From the NCBI RefSeq assembly GCF_009469605.1, contig NZ_SSXU01000004.1, forward strand, positions 1 through 64,000: 64,000 nucleotides of DNA, written 5' to 3'. The number at the start of each line of letters is the position of its first letter. Positions within the stretch are counted from its first letter, which is position 1. This document shows, one piece after another, positions 25,873 to 39,310 of this stretch. The translations under genes were made by a program, and so were the position numbers. The notes below the pieces were generated by a model. It did not search any database and was not told the DNA's origin. It saw only the letters and a list, made by a program, of their open reading frames with translations. The stretch comes from Zoogloea sp. 1C4 (GTDB taxonomy: Bacteria > Pseudomonadota > Gammaproteobacteria > Burkholderiales > Rhodocyclaceae).

Positions 25873-25892
25873 GGTAGGACTTCAGTCCGACA
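25873..25892. repeat. REP-like element, degenerate single copy
   Basis: GGTAGGACTTCAGTCCGACA, lacking one base of the GTAGGTCGGAC consensus. It is an unpaired half of the palindromic repeat seen five more times in this window. Confidence 0.65.
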
Positions 25893-25938
25893 GCGCCCCC
25901 GGCTCACCCGCACGAATCCCGAGCAGTGCGCCCCCGGT

Positions 25939-26013
25939 CCTGTAGGTCGGACTTCAGTCCGACATCGGGGCTTCGATCCAACGACGTTGTCGGACTGAAG
26001 TCCGACCTACAGG
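25939..26013. repeat. REP-like inverted pair
   Basis: Left arm CCTGTAGGTCGGACTTCAG and its inverted copy form a 75-bp pair with 26-bp perfectly complementary arms. Each arm also contains the inner palindrome TCGGACTTCAGTCCGA. Extragenic, upstream of psd. Confidence 0.85.
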
Positions 26014-26961: not shown

Positions 26962-27035
26962 CCTGTAGGTCGGACTTCAGTCCGACAACACAGCCAGACC
27001 AGCGCGATGATGTCGGACTAAAGTCCGACCTACAG
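26962..27035. repeat. REP-like inverted pair
   Basis: Same family as the pair upstream of psd: CCTGTAGGTCGGACTTCAG and its inverted partner, in which one base differs (GACTAAAGTC). It sits 19 bp after the psd stop and could act as a transcript end or mRNA-stabilising structure. Confidence 0.85.
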
Positions 27036-30200: not shown

Positions 30201-31748
30201 ATGCTCGACGACATCAAGAAGATCCTCTGGGCGGCAGCCGACAAGCTGCGCGCCAACATGGATGCAGCCGAATACAAGCACCTGGTGCTGGGCCTCATCT
30301 TCCTCAAATACGTCTCCGACACCTTCGCCGCCCGCCGGGCCGAGCTGACCCGCCGCTTCCTCGACGAAGCCGACGACTACTTCCTGCACGAGTGCGACGA
30401 CGAGATGCTCGCGGATGAGCTCGAAGACCGCGACTACTACAAGGAGGTCAACGTCTTCTGGGTGCCCGAAGCCGCCCGCTGGGAGCAGCTGCGCGCCGCC
30501 GCCAAACAGACCGACATCGGCAAGCGCATCGACGAAGCCCTCACCGTCATCGAGCAGGAGAACCCCAAGCTCAAGGGCATCCTCGACAAGCGTTACGGCC
30601 GCGCCCAGCTGCCCGACGGCAAGCTCGGCGAGCTGGTGGATCTCGTCTCCACCATCGGCTTTGGCGACGACCCCGGTGCCGCCCGCGACGTGCTGGGCCA
30701 GGTGTACGAATACTTCCTCGGCCAGTTCGCCAGCGCCGAGGGCAAGAAGGGTGGCCAGTTCTACACCCCGGCCAGCATCGTCAAAACCCTCGTGGCCGTG
30801 CTCGCCCCGCACCACGGCAAGGTGTACGACCCCTGCTGTGGCTCCGGCGGCATGTTCGTGCAGTCCGAAAAGTTCATCGAGGCCCACGGCGGCAAGCTGG
30901 GCGACGTGTCCATCTACGGGCAGGAATCCAACCCCACCACCTGGCGCCTCGCCGCGATGAACCTCGCCATCCGCGGCATCGACTTCAACCTGGGCAAGGA
31001 GCCCGCCGACACCTTCACCCGCAACCAGCACCCGGACCTGCGCGCCGACTTCATCCTCGCCAACCCGCCTTTCAACATCAGCGACTGGTGGCACGGCAGC
31101 CTGGAGGGCGACCCCCGCTGGCTGTATGGCGACCCACCCCAGGGCAATGCCAACTACGCTTGGCTCCAGCACATGCTGCACCACCTCGGCCCCACCGGCC
31201 GCGCCGGCATCGTGCTCGCCAACGGCAGCATGAGCTCCAGCCAGAACAACGAAGGCCAGATCCGCGCCGCGATGGTCGAGGCCGACGTGGTGGAGGTGAT
31301 GATCGCCCTGCCCGGCCAGCTCTTCTTCAACACCCAGATCCCCGCCTGCCTGTGGTTTCTGGCCAGAAAGAAGACCGCCCGCCCCGGCGAGGTGCTGTTC
31401 ATCGACGCCCGCAAGCTCGGCCGCATGATCAGCCGGGTGCAGGCCGAGCTGACCGACGAAGTCATCGACCGCATCGCCGCCACCGTCGCCGCCTGGCGCG
31501 GTGAAGCAGGCGACTACGCCGACCAGCCCGGCTACTGCCGCAGCGTCGCGCTCGCCGAGATTGCCGGGCACGGCCATGTGCTCACCCCCGGCCGCTACGT
31601 GGGCGCCGAGGCGGTGGAGGACGACGACGAAGCCTTTGCCGACAAGATGCGCTCGCTCACCGAAAAGCTCGGCGAGCAGATGGCGAAGGGGGCGGAGCTG
31701 GATGCCCTGATCCGCCAGAAGCTGGGAGTGCTGGGCTATGAGTTCTGA
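30201..31748 (+). CDS. hsdM: Type I restriction-modification system, methyltransferase subunit HsdM
   Basis: 515 aa. It has an N-terminal helical domain (about residues 1-130, [34 protein letters not shown]) and a gamma-class N6-adenine methyltransferase domain with SAM motif [12 protein letters not shown] (near 210) and catalytic N288-P-P-F291. Together with HsdS it methylates adenine in both strands of a bipartite target. It is the first gene of a four-gene operon, and its stop overlaps the hsdS start by 11 bp. No clear ribosome site precedes the ATG. Confidence 0.96.
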
Positions 31749-33192
31749 CCGCCCACCCCAAACCATGAGCACCCCAACCCCCACCGTAGGTCGGGTTAGC
31801 CCACAGGGCGTAACCCGACAGGACACCGCCGCCGAAGTGGCAGCCGATGTCGGGTTACGCGAAGCTAACCCGACCTACGGGGCTGATTGCTCCTGGCCTC
31901 AGATGACTCTCCGCGAGGCGGGAGTCACCCTCATCGACTGCGACCACCGTACGCCTCGTACAGCTGAAAATGGTTATCCCTATATTGCGATTCCGCAGCT
32001 TAAAGATGGGCATATCCATCTGGACGGTGTTCGCCGAATCTCTCCAGCCGACTATTTCGAATGGACAAAGAAGCTCAAGCCACAGGAGCACGATGTAATC
32101 GTTGTTCGTCGCTGTAGCTCCGGTGACAGTGCCGTCATTCCAGCCAAGCTTGAATGCGCGATTGGCCAAAATTTAGTTGTGCTGCGAGCGGACGGACGGC
32201 ATGTTTATCCGCCCTTCCTAAGGTGGCTTGTACGTGGTCCTGACTGGTGGAACCAGGTTGGCAAGTACATCAATGTCGGGGCTGTGTTCGATAGCCTTAA
32301 GTGTCGCGAAATACCGCATTTTGAACTTAGAGTCCCGCCTCTTCCGGTTCAGCGCGAGATTGCGTCTCTGCTTGGTGCCCTCGACGACCGCATCGCCCTC
32401 CTGCACGAAACCAACGCCACCCTCGAATCCATCGCCCAGGCGCTGTTCAAGTCCTGGTTCGTCGACTTCGACCCCGTCCGCGCCAGGCAGCAAGGGCTCG
32501 CCCCGGAAGGGATGGACGAGGCGACGGCAATGCTGTTTCCGGATGAGTTCGAGGAGTCGGAGTTGGGGCTGGTGCCGAGGGGGTGGAGGCTGATACCTCT
32601 GTCGAAAGCATTCGAAATCAATCCGAGCCGGAAGCTGAAGAGGGGCGAAACGGCCCCCTACCTCGACATGGCGAGCGTCAGCACGCAGGGACACATCGTC
32701 GGCGCTCCGATAGAGCGAGAGTTCGGCTCAGGTACCAAATTCGTCAATGGCGATACGCTCCTGGCGCGGATCACGCCTTGCCTCGAGAATGGTAAGACCG
32801 CTTACGTCGATTGCTTACCGGACGGTCAGACTGGCTGGGGTTCGACCGAATTCGTTATCCTGAGGCCTCAGCCGCCTTTGCCGTCGTACTACGCTTACCT
32901 TCTTTGCCGGCACGGGGCCTTCCGTAATTTCGCCATCCAAAGCATGTCCGGCACCAGTGGCCGTCAGCGCATCCAGAACGATGTGCTCGGCCGCTATCCT
33001 ATCGCCGTCCCGCCACCAGCCTTGGCCGACGCGTTCGGACAGGTGGTTAGTGGGCTTCAGTCGACGATCGCAGCGAACCACGCCACCGCCCAAACCCTCT
33101 CCACCCTCCGCGACACCCTGCTCCCCCGCCTGATCTCCGGCCAGCTCCGCGTGCCCGAGACGGAATCGCAAATCGAGGAGGCCACCGCATGA
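31738..33192 (+). CDS. hsdS: Type I restriction-modification system, specificity subunit HsdS
   Basis: 484 aa. It has two target-recognition domains (about residues 56-200 and 275-425), each followed by a conserved helical spacer: [40 protein letters not shown] in the middle and [17 protein letters not shown] at the end. It determines the bipartite DNA target for HsdM and HsdR. The first 47 codons before [11 protein letters not shown] are largely supplied by a palindromic repeat (31786-31878) read in frame, so the N-terminus is extended. An internal ATG at 31903 could start a repeat-free form. The first recognition domain is clearly more AT-rich than its surroundings, a sign of exchange. Confidence 0.93.
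31786..31878. repeat. REP-like inverted pair (second family) embedded in the hsdS start
   Basis: Left unit GTAGGTCGGGTTAGC..GCGTAACCCGACA and inverted right unit TGTCGGGTTACGC..GCTAACCCGACCTAC enclose about 27 bp. This palindrome type is widespread in proteobacterial intergenic DNA. Here it lies inside a coding frame and keeps it open. Confidence 0.85.
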
Positions 33193-34244
33193 CCCCCGCC
33201 CCCCATGCCCCGAATCTCCCCGAGGACTACCCGGCGTGGCTGATCCGGCTCAAGACCGACATCCGTCATGCCCGTCAGCGTTCAGCGCTGGCCGTCAATG
33301 CGGAGATGGTCCAGTTGTACCGGCGCATCGGTCAGGAGATTCTGGCCCGTCGGGCCGAGCAGGGCTGGGGTACCAAGGTGATCGAGCGGCTGGCCAGGGA
33401 TCTGAAGGATGCCTTCCCGGACATGCGCGGCTGGTCGGCCAGCAACCTGAAATACATGCGCTTCTTTGCCGAGCATTGCCCGGATGGCAAATTTGGTCAG
33501 CAGCCTGCTGACCAATTGCCGTGGTTCCACATCGTGACCCTGCTGACCAAACTGGCCAGCCCCGGGGAGCGGGCGTGGTACGCCGTGCGGGCCGTGCAGC
33601 TGGGTTGGTCGCGGCCCACGCTGGAACTCCACATCCGCAATCGCCTGATGGAACGGCAGGGCACTGCCGTAACCAACTTCGAGGCCCGCCTGCCCTCCCC
33701 TGATTCGGCCCTTGCGGCCGAAACCCTGAAAGACCCTTACCTCTTCGACTTTCTGGGTTTGGGAGACGATGCCCACGAGCGGGATATCGAAAACGGCCTG
33801 ATCCGCCATATCACCCGCTTTCTGCTGGAGTTGGGGTCCGGCTTCGCCTTCATCGGACGGCAGTTCCGGCTGGAGGTGGCGGGCGACGAATTTTTCATCG
33901 ACCTCCTTTTTTATCACACGCGCCTGAAGTGCTATGTGGTGGTCGAGCTGAAGGCGACGGCCTTCAAGCCCGAACATGCAGGCCAGCTCAACTTTTACCT
34001 CTCTGCGGTGGATGCGCAGGTGAAGGCGCCGGACGACAAGCCGACCATCGGCCTGCTGCTGTGCAAGCAGCAGAACCGGCTGGTCGCCGAGTACGCCCTG
34101 TCGGGGATCGAGAAGCCGATGGGCGTAGCGGAATACCAGCTGCTGCGCGACCTTCCCGCGTCGTTCGAGCGCAGCCTGCCCAGTATCGAAGCGATCGAGG
34201 CCGAGCTGACCGAAGAGATCGACAAGCTGGACCCGCAGAAATGA
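33189..34244 (+). CDS. YhcG/DUF1016 family PD-(D/E)XK nuclease
   Basis: 351 aa. The N-terminal DUF1016 helical domain (about residues 10-170) contains [32 protein letters not shown] and a core [18 protein letters not shown]. The C-terminal nuclease domain (about 180-335) has [10 protein letters not shown] and VVVELKA, giving the D...ExK catalytic set. It overlaps hsdS by ATGA and hsdR by ATGA, so it is made as part of the restriction operon. Family members often sit in type I loci, but their mechanistic role there is not settled. Confidence 0.9.
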
Positions 34245-37200
34245 CCGAAGACCAGCTCGAACACGAAGCCCTCGGCTGGCTGGCCGAGGTGGGTTACACG
34301 CCGCTTTACGGCCCGGAGCTGGCACCGGACGGCGAGCGCCCGGAGCGCAGCAGCTACCAGCAGGTGCTGCTTGTGGAGCGCCTGCGTGCGGCCATCGCCC
34401 GCCTGAACCCGCAGCTCACCACCGCAGCGCGGGAAGACGCGCTGCAACAGGTGCGGGATCTGGGCATCCCGGCGCTGCTGTCGGCCAACCGGCGGTTCCA
34501 CCAGCTGCTGGTGACCGGCGTGCCGGTCGAGGTGCAGCGTGGCGGCGAAACGCTGGGCGACTTTGCCCGCCTGATCGACTGGGTCGATCCATCGAACAAC
34601 GAATGGCTGGCGATCAACCAGTTCACCGTGAAGGGCCCGCACCACACCCGCCGGCCAGACATCGTGCTCTTCGTGAATGGCCTGCCGCTGGTGGTCATCG
34701 AGTTGAAGAACCCGGCCGACGCCAACGCCGACATCTGGAAGGCCTTCGAGCAGCTCCAGACCTACAAGGCCCAGACGCCGGACCTGTTCCAGTACAACGA
34801 GGTGCTGGTGATCTCCGACGGCTCGGACGCCCGCATGGGCTCCCTGTCGGCCGACGCCGAGCGCTTCATGCAGTGGCGCACCATCGACGGCATCGCCCTC
34901 GACCCGCTGGGTGAGTTCAACGAGCTGGAGACCCTGATCCGCGGCGTGCTCGCCCCGGCGCTGTTGCTCGACTACCTGCGCTACTTCGTGCTTTTTGAGG
35001 ACGATGGCGGGCTGGTCAAAAAGATCGCTGGCTACCACCAGTTCCACGCGGTGCGGGCGGCGATCCAGCAGGTGATCGCGGCCTCGCGCCCCGGCGGCGC
35101 TGCGGCAACCAAGGGCAAGGGCGGCGTGGTATGGCACACCCAGGGCAGCGGCAAGAGCATCACGATGACCTGCTTCGCCGCGCGGGTGATGCAGGCCACG
35201 GCGATGGAGAACCCCACCATCGTGGTCATCACCGACCGCAACGACCTGGACGGCCAGCTCTTCGGCGTGTTCTCGCTGGCCCAGGACCTGCTGCGGGAGC
35301 AGCCGGTGCAGGCAGGCACCCGGCAGGATCTGCGCCGGCTCCTGGCCAAGCGCCCGTCCGGCGGCATCGTGTTTGCGACGATCCAGAAGTTCATGCCGGG
35401 CGAGGACGAGGACGTCTTTCCGCTGCTCTCGGACCGGCACAACATCGTGGTCATCGCCGACGAGGCCCACCGCACCCAGTACGGCTTCGAGGCGAAGCTC
35501 AAGACCTTCAAGCCCAGGGCCAGCGCCAACGACGCCGAGGGCCAGCTGGCCGCCGAGCCCCGGGCGGCCTATGTGGTCGGCTACGCCCAGCACCTGCGCG
35601 ACGCGCTGCCCAACGCCACCTTCGTGGCCTTCACCGGCACGCCGGTATCCAGCGAGGACCGGGACACCCGCGCGGTGTTCGGCGACTACATCCACATCTA
35701 CGACATGCAGCAGGCCAAGGAGGACGGCGCCACGGTGGCGATCTACTTCGAGTCGCGGCTGGCCAAACTGTCGCTGAAGGCCGACGAACTGCCCCACATC
35801 GATGACGAGGTGGATGAGCTGGCCGAGGACGAGGAGGAAAGCCAGCAGGCCCGCCTGAAGAGCAAGTGGGCGGCGCTGGAGAAGGTCGTCGGCGCCGAAC
35901 CCCGCATCGCCAGCGTGGCGGCGGATCTGGTGGCCCACTTCGAGGAGCGCAACAAGGCCCAGACAGGCAAGGCGATGGTGGTGGCGATGAGCCGCGACAT
36001 CTGCGTGCATCTCTACAACGAGATCGTGAAACTCCGGCCCGACTGGCACGACGATGACCCCGAGAAGGGCGCGATCAAGATCGTGATGACCGGATCGGCC
36101 AGCGACAAGGCGCTGCTGCGCCCGCACCTCTACAGCAAGCAGGTCAAGAAACGCCTGGAGAAGCGCTTCAAGGACCCGGCCGACCCGCTGCGGCTGGTGA
36201 TCGTCCGCGACATGTGGCTGACCGGCTTCGACGCGCCCTGCGTGCATACCCTGTATGTGGACAAGCCCATGAAGGGCCACAACCTCATGCAGGCCATCGC
36301 CCGGGTGAACCGCGTCTTCAAGGACAAGCAGGGCGGGCTGGTGGTGGACTACATCGGCATCGCCAACGAGCTGAAGTCGGCACTGAAGGACTACACCGCC
36401 AGCAAGGGCCGCGGCCGCCCGACCGTGGATGCGGCCGAGGCATACGCCGTGCTGGAGGAGAAGCTCGACATCCTGCGCGGGCTGCTCCACGGCTTCGACT
36501 ACGCCGACTTCCTGAGCGCCGGCCATCGGCGTCTCGCGGGCGCGGCCAACCATGTGCTGGGCATCAAGGACGGCAAGAAGCGTTTTGCTGATCAGGCGGT
36601 GGCCATGTCCAAGGCCTTCACCCTGTGCTGCACGCTGGACGAGGCCAAGGCGGTGCGCGAGGAGGTCGCATTCTTCCAGGCGGTGAAGGTGATCCTCACC
36701 AAGCGCGACCTGACCCACAAGAAGAAGACCGACGAGGAGCGCGAACTGGCGATCCGCCAGATCATCGGCTCGGCGGTGGTGTCGGAAGATGTGGTGGATG
36801 TGTTCGAGGCGGTGGGCCTCGACAAGCCCAACATCGGCATCCTCGACGATGAGTTCCTGGCCGAGGTGCGCAACCTGCCGGAACGCAATCTGGCCGTCGA
36901 GTTGCTGGAGCGCCTGCTGGAAGGCGAGATCAAGAGCCGCTTTGCGGGCAACGTGGTGCAGGAGAAGAAGTTCTCCGAGCTGCTGGCCAACGTGGTCAAG
37001 CGCTACCAGAACCGCGCCATCGAGACCGCTCAGGTGATCGAGGAGCTGATCGAGATGGCGAAGAAGTTCCACGCCGCCGCCACCCGAGGCGAGGAACTGG
37101 GCCTCTCCGAAGACGAGATCCGCTTCTACGACGCGCTGGCCAATAACGAATCGGCGGTGCGCGAACTCTCCGACGAGACGCTGAAGAAGATCGCCCACGA

Positions 37201-37390
37201 ACTCACCGAGAACCTGCGCAACAACCTGACCGTGGATTGGTCGGAGCGCGAGAGCGTGCGCGCCAGGCTGCGCCTGATGGTCAAGCGCATCCTGCGCAAG
37301 TACAAGTACCCACCCGACCAGCAGGAAGGCGCCGTCGAGTTGGTGCTCCAGCAGGCGAAGGCGCTGGGCGAGGCATGGATGGCGGCGTGA
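34241..37390 (+). CDS. hsdR: Type I restriction-modification system, restriction subunit HsdR
   Basis: 1049 aa. The N-terminal endonuclease domain has the PD-(D/E)XK set [11 protein letters not shown] and VVIELKNP. The SF2 translocase follows: Walker A GSGKS near residue 301, DEAHRTQ near 406, and [14 protein letters not shown], with helicase domain 2 containing [11 protein letters not shown] and [10 protein letters not shown]. The C-terminal helical region binds the methylase. HsdR moves DNA with ATP and cuts far from unmethylated sites. The true start is the ATG that overlaps the nuclease gene stop. The frame is intact, so the system looks functional. Confidence 0.96.
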
Positions 37391-37395
37391 TCGGC

Positions 37396-37463
37396 AGTCG
37401 GACTTCAGTCTGACGACACGGCCGTACCGGAGAGGGGTGTCGGACTGACGCCCGACCCACGGG
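37396..37463. repeat. REP-like inverted pair, degenerate
   Basis: Same family as the psd-flanking pairs but with several changes in both arms (AGTCGGACTTCAGTCTGAC and GTCGGACTGACGCCCGAC). It lies directly after hsdR and just before the 21-bp palindrome array. Confidence 0.7.
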
Positions 37464-37489
37464 GCGGGGGGTGATTTTTCATCGACGGA

Positions 37490-37714
37490 GGGTGATTGCC
37501 ACCCTCCGTCGCCTCATTATTAGGCGACGCTGCCTTATTTTTAGGCGACCGAGGGTAATCGGGACCCTCGATTGCCTAACTTTTAGGCGACGTCGCCTAA
37601 AGTTTAGGCAGCGCTGCCTAATTATCAGGCGGCATTGCCTAAGAATTAGGCAGCAGAGGGTAACGGAGACCCTCGGTCGCCTAAAAATGAGGCAATCGAG
37701 GGTCTCCGTTACCC
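37490..37714. repeat. Array of eleven 15-bp palindromes in exact 21-bp register
   Basis: Units start at 37490, 37511, 37532, 37553, 37574, 37595, 37616, 37637, 37658, 37679 and 37700, each 15 bp long with a 6-bp spacer. Seven are type A (GCCT-N7-AGGC, AT-rich core, consensus GCCTAANNNTTAGGC) and four are type B (GGGT-N7-ACCC, mixed core). The order is B A A B A A A A B A B. All arms are perfect. A degenerate unit precedes it at 37469. Some spacers are palindromic too, giving 18-bp perfect palindromes at 37583-37600 and 37604-37621, so half-sites alternate every 10.5 bp. An 87-codon Arg-rich frame crosses it but is probably a by-product. It could be a cooperative protein-binding platform, a chain of RNA hairpins, or a mobile repeat. 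No function is known to me. Confidence 0.95.
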
Positions 37715-37727
37715 CCTCCCGGATCGA

Positions 37728-37805
37728 CCCGTAGGTCGGACTTCAGTCCGACAACACGGGTTGATGAGCGGGGGGGAATGTCGGACTGAAGTCCGACCTA
37801 CAGGG
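37728..37805. repeat. REP-like inverted pair overlapping the end of hflX
   Basis: CCCGTAGGTCGGACTTCAG and inverted partner ending GTCCGACCTACAGGG. It closes the array on its right side. The TAG stop codon of hflX (minus strand) is formed by the right arm. Confidence 0.85.
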
Positions 37806-39126
37806 ATGGGGTGCTGCCCTCGCCGGCCTCGCCGATCTGCGTGCGCAGCTTTTCCAGCACATCGGCCTCGGTGCGCACGTGGAAGAAGGCGCCGGCTTCG
37901 TCGGCGCGTTCTTCGAGCACCTGGCAGTGGGCAAACACGGCCTGGCGCAGTTGCTGGGCGGACCAGGGGAGGAAGAGCTCGGCTTCGACCAGATCGCGCT
38001 GGAAGAAGGTGACGATGGTGCCGTGCAGGCGCATCACGTCGTCGGGGCGGCGGGCGCTCATCACGATGCAGCCGGGGTAGCGGGCCTCCAGTGCGGCGGC
38101 GTGTTCGGCCTGGGCTTCGGCGTCGCCCACGTGGTCGATCTTGTTGAACACACGGATGCGGGGCACTTCGTCGGCGCCGATCTCGGCGAGCACGGTGTCG
38201 GTCACTTCCAGCTGGCGCTCGAAGCCGGGGTCGCTGGCGTCGATCACGTGGAGCAGCAGCTCGGCTTCGAGGGCTTCGTCCAGGGTGGATTTGAAGGACG
38301 CGACGAGGCCGTGGGGCAGGTTCTTGATGAAGCCGACGGTGTCGCTCACCAGCACGCGGGGCACGCTCTCGGGGTAGAGGACGCGGACGGTGGTGTCGAG
38401 GGTGGCGAAGAGCTTGTTGGCCACCAGCACCTCGCTGCCGGTGAGGGCGCGCATCAGGGTGGATTTGCCGGCGTTGGTGTAGCCCACCAGCGCCACGCTG
38501 GCGAGGCCGCGGCTGCCCTGGCGGCGGGCGCGCTGGGTCTTGCGCTCGGCGTCCATAGCGATGATCTCCTGCTGCAGCTCGGCGATGCGGTCGCGGATCT
38601 TGCGGCGGTCGAGCTCGGTGAGGGATTCGCCCGCCCCACGGCCACCACCGCCGCCCCGCTGGCGCCCCTGGGAGCCGGCCAGCTTGGCCATCTCGCGCAG
38701 GCGCGGCGCCATGTAGCCGAGGCGGGCGATCTCCACCTGGGCCTTGGCGGCGCGGGAGCGGGCATTGCGGTGGAAGATCTCGAGGATGACCATGGTGCGG
38801 TCCATCACCTCGCAGCCCACTTCAACCTCCAGGTTGCGCGCCTGGGAGGGCGACAGCTCGTGATCCACCAGCACGAATTCGATCTCGCGGCCATCGTCGC
38901 CGGCCACGTAGTCGCGGACTTCCTGCCGCTTGCCGGCCCCCAGGTAGGCCGCCGTGTCGAACGTGGTGCGCTTCTGGACGAAGCTGTGGACGACCTGCAG
39001 GCCCAGAGTCTTGGCGAGTTCGCGCAGCTCGGTGAGCGAGGCGTCGAACTCGAAGTCGGGTACGTTGGGCAGCTGGACTGCGGCGATGACGGCGTAAATG
39101 GGGGTATCTCGGGCTTCGGTTTGCAT
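37798..39126 (-). CDS. hflX: Ribosome-associated GTPase HflX
   Basis: 442 aa. It has an N-terminal HflX domain (about residues 10-200, TFDTAAYLGAGKRQEV, VLVDHELSPSQARNLE, DRTMVILEIFHRNARSRAAKAQVE, then a Gly-rich GGGGGRGAGE segment) and a GTPase domain with G1 GYTNAGKST, G3 DTVGF and G4 NKID. HflX splits stalled or heat-damaged 70S ribosomes. The downstream REP-like repeat supplies the stop codon, so the last residues may have been set by repeat insertion. hfq, often adjacent in proteobacteria, is absent here. Confidence 0.95.
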   Translation of the reverse strand: MQTEARDTPIYAVIAAVQLPNVPDFEFDASLTELRELAKTLGLQVVHSFVQKRTTFDTAAYLGAGKRQEVRDYVAGDDGREIEFVLVDHELSPSQARNLEVEVGCEVMDRTMVILEIFHRNARSRAAKAQVEIARLGYMAPRLREMAKLAGSQGRQRGGGGGRGAGESLTELDRRKIRDRIAELQQEIIAMDAERKTQRARRQGSRGLASVALVGYTNAGKSTLMRALTGSEVLVANKLFATLDTTVRVLYPESVPRVLVSDTVGFIKNLPHGLVASFKSTLDEALEAELLLHVIDASDPGFERQLEVTDTVLAEIGADEVPRIRVFNKIDHVGDAEAQAEHAAALEARYPGCIVMSARRPDDVMRLHGTIVTFFQRDLVEAELFLPWSAQQLRQAVFAHCQVLEERADEAGAFFHVRTEADVLEKLRTQIGEAGEGSTPSL

Positions 39127-39231: not shown

Positions 39232-39310
39232 GCCCTGTAGGTCGGACTTCAGTCCGACAATACGGCCGGATCGGAGGGGGGATGTCGGACTGAAGTCCGA
39301 CCTACAGGGC
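39232..39310. repeat. REP-like inverted pair
   Basis: GCCCTGTAGGTCGGACTTCAG-type arms with perfect inverted partner, the longest arms of the family in this window. It lies between hflX and the divergent CPBP gene. Confidence 0.85.

Follow-up and report, generated by a model that had tools for sequence, protein, structure and literature searches.

A phased array of short palindromes in the genome of Zoogloea sp. 1C4, together with a multicopy gene that we call geneX, hints at an undescribed protein-and-array partnership. Arrays of one geometry, 4-bp arms around a 7-bp core (4-7-4) at a 21-bp period, recur downstream of geneX copies, with arms that are specific to each locus. In gene-linked arrays the arms change more slowly than the cores, insertions and deletions of exact units occur, and some arrays stand as orphans away from the gene. 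From these patterns we infer that the array is bound as double-stranded DNA, that the GeneX protein is its reader, and that the pair has some cellular role. Our tentative reading, to which we assign a likelihood a little short of even, is that the array is a double-stranded DNA site read by its cognate GeneX or by a complex containing it, and that the array studied here is an orphan member of such a two-part unit.

The window is the whole 64,000-nucleotide stretch of DNA that was analyzed. At positions 37490-37714, with no assignable strand, eleven 15-bp units follow one another in an exact 21-bp register, all of them with perfect 4-bp arms. Seven are GCCT/AGGC units and four are GGGT/ACCC units, in the order G C C G C C C C G C G (G, GGGTN7ACCC; C, GCCTN7AGGC). 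An earlier note had described eleven perfect-arm units at a 21-bp period without a slip, and both direct reading and a chain score for phased palindromes bear this out: the array scores 33 and is the sole chain in the window to reach 9 at the 4-7-4/21-bp geometry. Across 290 pairings of period and core length, with the best chain kept for each, any pairing that did not return the array itself scored at most 12 among the best 25 listed. A 21-bp leader (GGGTGATTTTTCATCGACGGA, 37469-37489, no strand) precedes the array in the same register; it resembles the GATG/CATC units of other Zoogloea arrays and recurs, slightly altered, at L009:7237-7257. The same note held that the arms are fixed and that cores and spacers vary. 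The arms stand as described, but the cores and spacers are not free, since those of the GCCT units have a consensus: the core is mostly [AC]A[AT]N[AT]T[TG] across 76 units from 11 arrays, related arrays included, and the spacers between GCCT units are mostly RRCGYY (n = 43).

The array lies right after a type I restriction operon and between REP-like palindromes, just as had been noted. The operon (30201..37390) comprises hsdM (30201-31748), hsdS (31738-33192), a DUF1016/YhcG nuclease gene (33189-34244) and hsdR (ending at 37390), all on the plus strand, and we report it as context only, as no evidence ties it to the array. To the left of the array are REP-like palindromes at 37397..37414 (plus strand) and, diverged, at 37439..37456 (minus strand); to the right is a GTAG-tagged pair at 37735..37752 (plus strand) and 37780..37797 (minus strand). 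The right-hand pair reads GTAGGTCGGAC and therefore looks like the GTAG-tagged REPs of PMC3733652. Further REPs of the GTCGGACTTCAGTCCGAC type occur at window positions 25874-26006, 26969-27029 and 39241-39301, and the window holds 21 matches to this type (at most 3 mismatches, both strands counted) against 0.05 expected. A GTPase gene that is HflX-like by its domains (37798..39126, minus strand) converges on the array. Homology with the window stops in the 3' end of this HflX-like gene at 17 of 18 other Zoogloea loci, the 18th ending at a contig edge; the array and the restriction operon were thus not found at that site elsewhere. In the 16 of those 18 loci where 1,500 bp downstream were scored, the highest score at period 21 was 22 or less, compared with 36 for the window.

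A pattern search of the strain's own genome yielded a second array, at L009:7258-7482, whose units stand in the same order as those of the window array. The two arrays share their spacers largely and their leader nearly so; their cores differ, and two units of the L009 array have an imperfect arm. In a nucleotide comparison they are 84% alike over 296 bp, the right-hand REP included. The L009 array lies directly downstream of a geneX of 154 amino acids, and a geneX profile has no match anywhere in the window, which makes its array an orphan copy without geneX.

The link to geneX holds well beyond this locus. We took 70 geneX copies from Zoogloea, 68 with enough downstream and 68 with enough upstream sequence, and compared the best nine-unit score at period 21 with 200 dinucleotide shuffles per copy. 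At p<0.01 an array was found in 30 of 68 downstream regions and in none of 68 upstream regions, and at p<0.05 in 35 and 3 of 68, respectively. Within 500 bp downstream, a score of at least 23 was reached by 24 of 68 copies at period 21 and by none of 68 at each of periods 17-20 and 22-25. No array reached p<0.01 behind 38 of the 68 copies. Six orthologues of the L009 gene divide evenly, those in G000, G036 and G200 passing p<0.01 and those in G202, G211 and G190 failing, with remnants of units visible in the latter three. In another family of the same class, that of G246, we assembled 72 geneX loci (29 from the search, 40 fetched, 3 earlier), mostly near-full-length and with most short fragments omitted; here 15 of 71 testable downstream regions and 2 of 72 upstream regions passed p<0.01, and 13 of 71 against 1 of 72 scored at least 23, with no array at p<0.01 behind 56 of 71 copies. 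Without shuffles, arrays were also seen behind geneX in G050, G1029 and G904 (scores of 25, 24 and 22). None stood out behind the copies in G695 and G722, one copy in G246 (L200), the relative on a Thiodictyon plasmid, a second G050 copy with little sequence left, or several other copies in G904 and G1029. The earlier note had proposed to see whether arrays sit near restriction loci or a fixed gene. The link is to the multicopy geneX and not to the restriction operon; we rejected the operon as the cause of the array because other arrays lie behind geneX.

Period 21 predominates but is not universal. In the family of G246, when periods 16-29 and cores 3-13 were left to compete without shuffles, 23 downstream loci reached a score of 25, and period 21 was the best in 21 of these; a period other than 21 reached at least 23 in 2 of 71 loci, one with a 22-bp and one with a 20-bp array. 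In all, 4-7-4 units at a 22-bp period occur at three loci, G036:C52 and G212:C141 (in both about 480 bp behind geneX, with 800 bp examined) and L280, and at a 20-bp period at one, L309, so that exactly two turns of B-DNA are not universal. Of the proposal that 21 bp represents two helical turns, what survives is the alternation of half-sites, which reverse orientation every 11 and 10 bp; an obligatory two turns does not. The same variants bear on the notion that the array encodes a protein repeat of seven residues, 21 bp being seven codons. One forward frame is indeed open over 252 bp in both the window array and the second array, but a coding repeat sits poorly with the 22- and 20-bp arrays, the 87-aa frame has no Pfam match, and the palindromic arms would go unexplained, all of which makes this notion scarcely credible.

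Behind other copies of geneX the geometry is the same and the arms are others: GCAG/CTGC, AAGC/GCTT, TGAT/ATCA, ATCC/GGAT, CGAG/CTCG, CCAT/ATGG, TGAG/CTCA and TCAA/TTGA. The earlier note had suggested a search of related genomes; the geometry recurs there, with arms that are not the same everywhere. The arms are locus-specific, common to close orthologues and unrelated between distant paralogues. Among 33 arrays, mean arm similarity is 0.62 for protein pairs of at least 80% identity (10 pairs) and 0.26 to 0.28 below 60% identity (491 pairs), near the value of 0.25 for random letters. Between 60 and 80% identity it averages 0.37 (27 pairs), and in the register used, three of the five pairs at 70-80% differ in their arms. 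The cores behave differently. A-tract cores (CAAAAAG/CTTTTTG) and CTCGGAG-like cores recur under different arms in both families, each as a small share of the total: CTCCGAG/CTCGGAG makes up 10 and CAAAAAG/CTTTTTG 7 of 119 cores in the family of G246, and CAAAAAG/CTTTTTG makes up 6 of 234 in Zoogloea. Three orphan arrays of G1161 switch between A-tract and CTCCGAG-like cores from unit to unit, as far as their units were listed. From the recurrence under different arms, the arms would seem specific to each locus, and the cores of a more general kind. As a variant of the spacer, a strong palindrome of the CCGAAACTTCGG type serves as spacer in L106, L107 and L135 (G094, G208 and G207).

Nine pairs of orthologous arrays were compared. 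In five gene-linked pairs, picked afterwards from the nine and with sites that are not independent, substitutions affect 35 of 352 arm positions, 66 of 306 core positions (p = 5e-5) and 31 of 234 spacer positions. Over all nine pairs, orphans included, the counts are 82 of 639 for arms and 109 of 558 for cores (p = 0.002). Two of the three CGGA pairs show the reverse, with more change in arms than in cores, perhaps because the core there is part of the conserved word. A gap of exactly 21 bp occurs in three of the nine pairs; smaller gaps, of 1-2 bp, number three, and in places a slip of one base is seen in the arrays of L114 and G904 (L215). The slower change of the arms in gene-linked arrays and the exact-unit gaps uphold the earlier proposal of selection on arms and spacing. 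They also bear on the possibility that the arrays are a neutral minisatellite, a functionless 21-bp duplication by slippage whose starting place geneX merely marks. Such an origin would account for the exact-unit gaps, for the near-perfect tandem repeats of some arrays (L350), and for the many geneX copies without an array, and tandem duplication naturally gives a fixed unit length. It would not account for arms that diverge less than cores, for unrelated motifs that share the 4-7-4/21-bp geometry in two families with period 21 best in 21 of 23 loci, or for a tie to one gene and to one side of it only, and we judge it very improbable. The L350 array itself (L350:2151-2354, on G000 contig C64 near 187650-187860) is another 21-bp array of the strain's own genome, made of near-identical units (GAGAGAAGCAATCTC); it looks recently amplified, and no geneX lies near it in the fetched stretch. 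The three-unit GCCT pattern was found at 35 genome-contig loci, seven of them in Zoogloea (L028, L030, L032, L051, L053, L054 and L055). Those outside Zoogloea, among the loci listed, are mostly near-perfect tandem repeats or in another phase, and we excluded them from all counts.

Whether the palindromes act as DNA or as RNA can be approached through their mismatches and cores. An array transcribed behind geneX as a 3' RNA, a chain of small hairpins with a regulatory or antitoxin-like part, would suit its position downstream of the gene, and the geometry would allow 4-bp stems closed by 7-nt loops. Stems in RNA should tolerate G-T and not A-C. Across 24 Zoogloea and 13 other arrays, the arm mismatches comprise 76 G-T and 63 A-C pairs, a slight excess of G-T that is not significant (p = 0.31) and so does not clearly favor RNA, beside 236 mismatches of other kinds and 1,037 matches. 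In 76 GCCT units, core positions 5 and 11 vary independently (p = 0.41), and at positions 7 and 9 equal bases outnumber complementary ones (43 versus 18, p = 0.0008), which amounts to runs of A or T. The plus strand of the window array, folded as RNA, is far more stable than shuffles (z of -15), though arrays of palindromes would fold strongly anyway, and the fold consists mostly of long-range helices, not eleven mini-hairpins. Rfam gave no match at its gathering score for the window and six further loci, its other matches lying below gathering scores, and RNA hairpins need no fixed 21-nt register. A 3' RNA is accordingly improbable in our estimation, and the chain of RNA mini-hairpins raised earlier is not supported. 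We take the balance of mismatches, the lack of covariation in the cores, and the fold as evidence for recognition of double-stranded DNA in which each helical turn presents one half-site; these three tests may also be compatible with a hairpin formed by single-stranded DNA. The other suggestion made at the outset, a multivalent DNA site, gains from the alternation of half-sites every 10-11 bp, the slower change of the arms and the exact-unit gaps.

Arrays that stand apart from the gene occur both in Zoogloea and in the other family. The geneX profile was run against the window, L009 and 37 loci retrieved as arrays or candidates, and matches only seven of these 39 sequences. Eleven further array loci have no intact geneX and one broken copy (L345) in fetched stretches of about 1.9 kb or more per side, and in the search that yielded them a control pattern gave no match in any of 11 genomes. 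CGAG-type arrays occur at four places each in G1161 and G1187, one in each genome being gene-linked; three of the others in G1161 and two in G1187 are orphans without geneX in the fetched stretch, and one more in G1187 has a broken geneX about 3.4 kb off. Orphan arrays away from geneX are thus present in G000, G1161, G1187 and G246. A two-unit GCCT pattern is abundant in G000, G036, G203 and G212 (8, 18, 12 and 8 matches) and a CGGA pattern in G199 (32) and G206 (8). All six of these genomes carry geneX, and the other 17 Zoogloea genomes, nine of them non-carriers of geneX, have at most two matches to either pattern. No cognate geneX was found for the CGGA arrays of G199 and G206, a point against strict pairing of gene and array. 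Beside many of these CGGA-type arrays there is a repeat of about 600 bp, in both orientations (L091:3373-3984, with copies in L093-L096, L099, L100, L101 and L108). L099 has this repeat and the orthologous G206 site L104 lacks it, so that it looks like an insertion beside the array.

The orphans lend themselves to another explanation, in which the array is a non-autonomous mobile element, recognized as hairpin or duplex, that geneX or a partner copies in the manner of REP sequences and their RAYT genes, the orphans being offspring. Orphans do share the motif of a gene-linked array (the window and L009; G1161; G1187), closely similar copies lie at different sites in G199 (L090 and L092, 98% over 315 bp; L091 and L093, 90% over 1683 bp), decayed copies of geneX with its array are scattered through G904, and palindromic design and intergenic position are those of REPs. 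Against spreading stand a GeneX with neither a transposase family match nor an invariant histidine, a low number of copies (two to four loci per motif in G000, G036, G1161 and G1187, about a dozen in G199), and geneX paralogues that are mostly old. We hold spreading as the origin of the arrays to be unlikely, and the geneX unit may still act in a REP/RAYT-like way in spreading its orphan copies. In G904, scattered and partly truncated geneX copies, some with arrays, occur at L215, L219, L222, L224-L226, L228 and L232; in two copies, on C105 and C179, the matched parts lie in different frames and are separated by 41 bp near residue 44, and the same stretch is present in a third copy.

RAYTs need a pair of histidines, and no histidine is invariant in either GeneX alignment (A1, A2); together with the absence of any Pfam or NCBIfam match to a Y1 (HUH) transposase, this led us to reject membership of geneX among the RAYTs. 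CRISPR arrays combine constant repeats of 23-50 bp with unique spacers, and 15-bp units with variable cores and constrained 6-bp spacers likewise led us to set CRISPR aside; the structure of the units thus upholds the judgment of the earlier note that the array matches neither a CRISPR nor a REP design. With REP/RAYT systems as described in PMC3116915 and PMC3733652, the likeness consists in intergenic palindromes, a gene with its own type of palindrome nearby, several types of gene and palindrome per genome, and orphan copies. PMC3116915 reports tandem REP arrays in Pseudomonas fluorescens SBW25, with two REP types alternating 112 and 72 bp apart or evenly spaced, and PMC3733652 gives REPs as 20-40 bp long and high in copy number. 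The geneX arrays, too, include dispersed palindrome copies away from the gene. They differ in that they line up about 9-15 units of the 4-7-4 type at 21 bp, in low copy and on one side of the gene, and in that RAYTs are tyrosine transposases and geneX has no transposase family match. A GTAG/CGTC tag on a palindrome of 20-40 bp does not occur in the array, whose units are 15 bp long and without a constant tag, and is carried, as GTAG, by the REPs on its right flank.

Matches to geneX occur in 14 of 23 Zoogloea genomes, 12 of the 14 having several copies, with 8 in the strain's own genome (G000) and 12 in G036. Profile searches found relatives in 2 of 398 genomes of a phylum sample, 4 of 150 of an order sample and 5 of 369 of a class sample (the own genome in each), in 38 of 119 genomes of the family of G246, and in 2 of 39 of the family of G1029. 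Phages yielded no relative to one query, viral contigs no confirmed relative in two scans, and plasmids a single relative, that of Thiodictyon, without an array. Neither Pfam, NCBIfam nor PHROGs matches geneX beyond chance level; the protein may resemble multicopy hypothetical proteins of Bacteroidota. In a tree of 70 GeneX proteins, copies from different genomes mostly join before copies of the same genome, which indicates that most of the paralogues are old. Three copies in the strain's own genome (L155, L162 and L165) adjoin a methylase (C47), an AAA_15/DUF3696 gene (C75) and a DDE transposase (C107), and one in G211 (L256) lies beside a gene judged ATPase-like by eye; these neighborhoods look like defense or mobile islands.

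AlphaFold models GeneX as all-helical, with a long helix at residues 73-124 and a low-confidence tail (mean pLDDT of 83.5, pTM of 0.62). The model has no fold match at E<=0.001 in PDB or BFVD, the best hit of a sequence profile in PDB (E of 0.085) points to no relative of known structure, and GeneX matches no DNA-binding, HTH, toxin or transposase family. The 70 proteins are acidic (median pI of 5.5), with the last 25 residues mildly basic (median of +3). Nineteen alignment columns are conserved within and variable between orthologue groups, among them columns 133, 136, 139 and 142, which share one side of the last helix, and this helix is a candidate for specific contact with DNA, no more. 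Counting against GeneX as the reader are its acidity, its lack of a fold match, the many copies without an array, and the two upstream regions that also passed p<0.01.

The preferred reading of a DNA site for GeneX may be put as follows. The two-part unit would consist of geneX, the gene of a helical protein of about 155 amino acids, and, behind it, of an array whose half-sites alternate in orientation every 10-11 bp and make up the 4-7-4 palindromes at their 21-bp period. A protein would dock once per helical turn, in alternating orientation, along one face of a stretch of about 230 bp, with a dimer covering each palindrome. The half-site differs by locus and is common to close geneX orthologues, so that the cognate GeneX, alone or in a complex, would be the most likely reader. 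Orphan arrays would offer that reader additional sites or be what is left from copying of the unit, and the cellular role might be local control of the nucleoid, control of expression, or spread of the unit itself. Possibly, with a likelihood that we place noticeably under even, these loci form a self-addressed class of DNA and protein, in which each paralogue keeps a private half-site code that is reinvented between paralogues, the 21-bp geometry is kept, and orphans are extra addresses. Several such private codes, perhaps up to a dozen, would then run in parallel in one genome.

Several known systems share parts of this design. Partition centromeres (parC, tubC, parS) also set short sites in rows at helical spacing next to a small-protein gene, and each system has a specificity of its own. 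Here, however, there are many chromosomal copies per genome, and the sole plasmid relative has no array; ten neighboring frames of six geneX copies include no ParA/ParM/TubZ-type NTPase. The operators of 434-type HTH dimers, with indirect readout of the core, likewise place 4-bp arms about one turn apart around an A-tract-like core, but the sites described here come in rows of about eleven, downstream, with a GeneX that has no HTH family match. In type III toxin-antitoxin systems a small gene also adjoins a row of short repeats; those repeats lie upstream and act as RNA, whereas these lie downstream with no clear RNA constraint. We rejected that class, as upstream regions gave none of 68 at p<0.01 and geneX has no toxin match. 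Among the matches listed for the open-access literature, none describes gene-linked 21-bp palindrome arrays, and we know of no other design in which locus-private phased arrays follow one gene family.

Even if another protein proves to be the reader, the link to the array provides a handle on a family that is named in none of Pfam, NCBIfam and PHROGs. If GeneX does read its own array, one small family would supply many natural pairs of protein and DNA specificity within a fixed geometry, and the evolution of DNA recognition would become directly testable. It would also point to an unrecognized layer of chromosome marking in bacteria.
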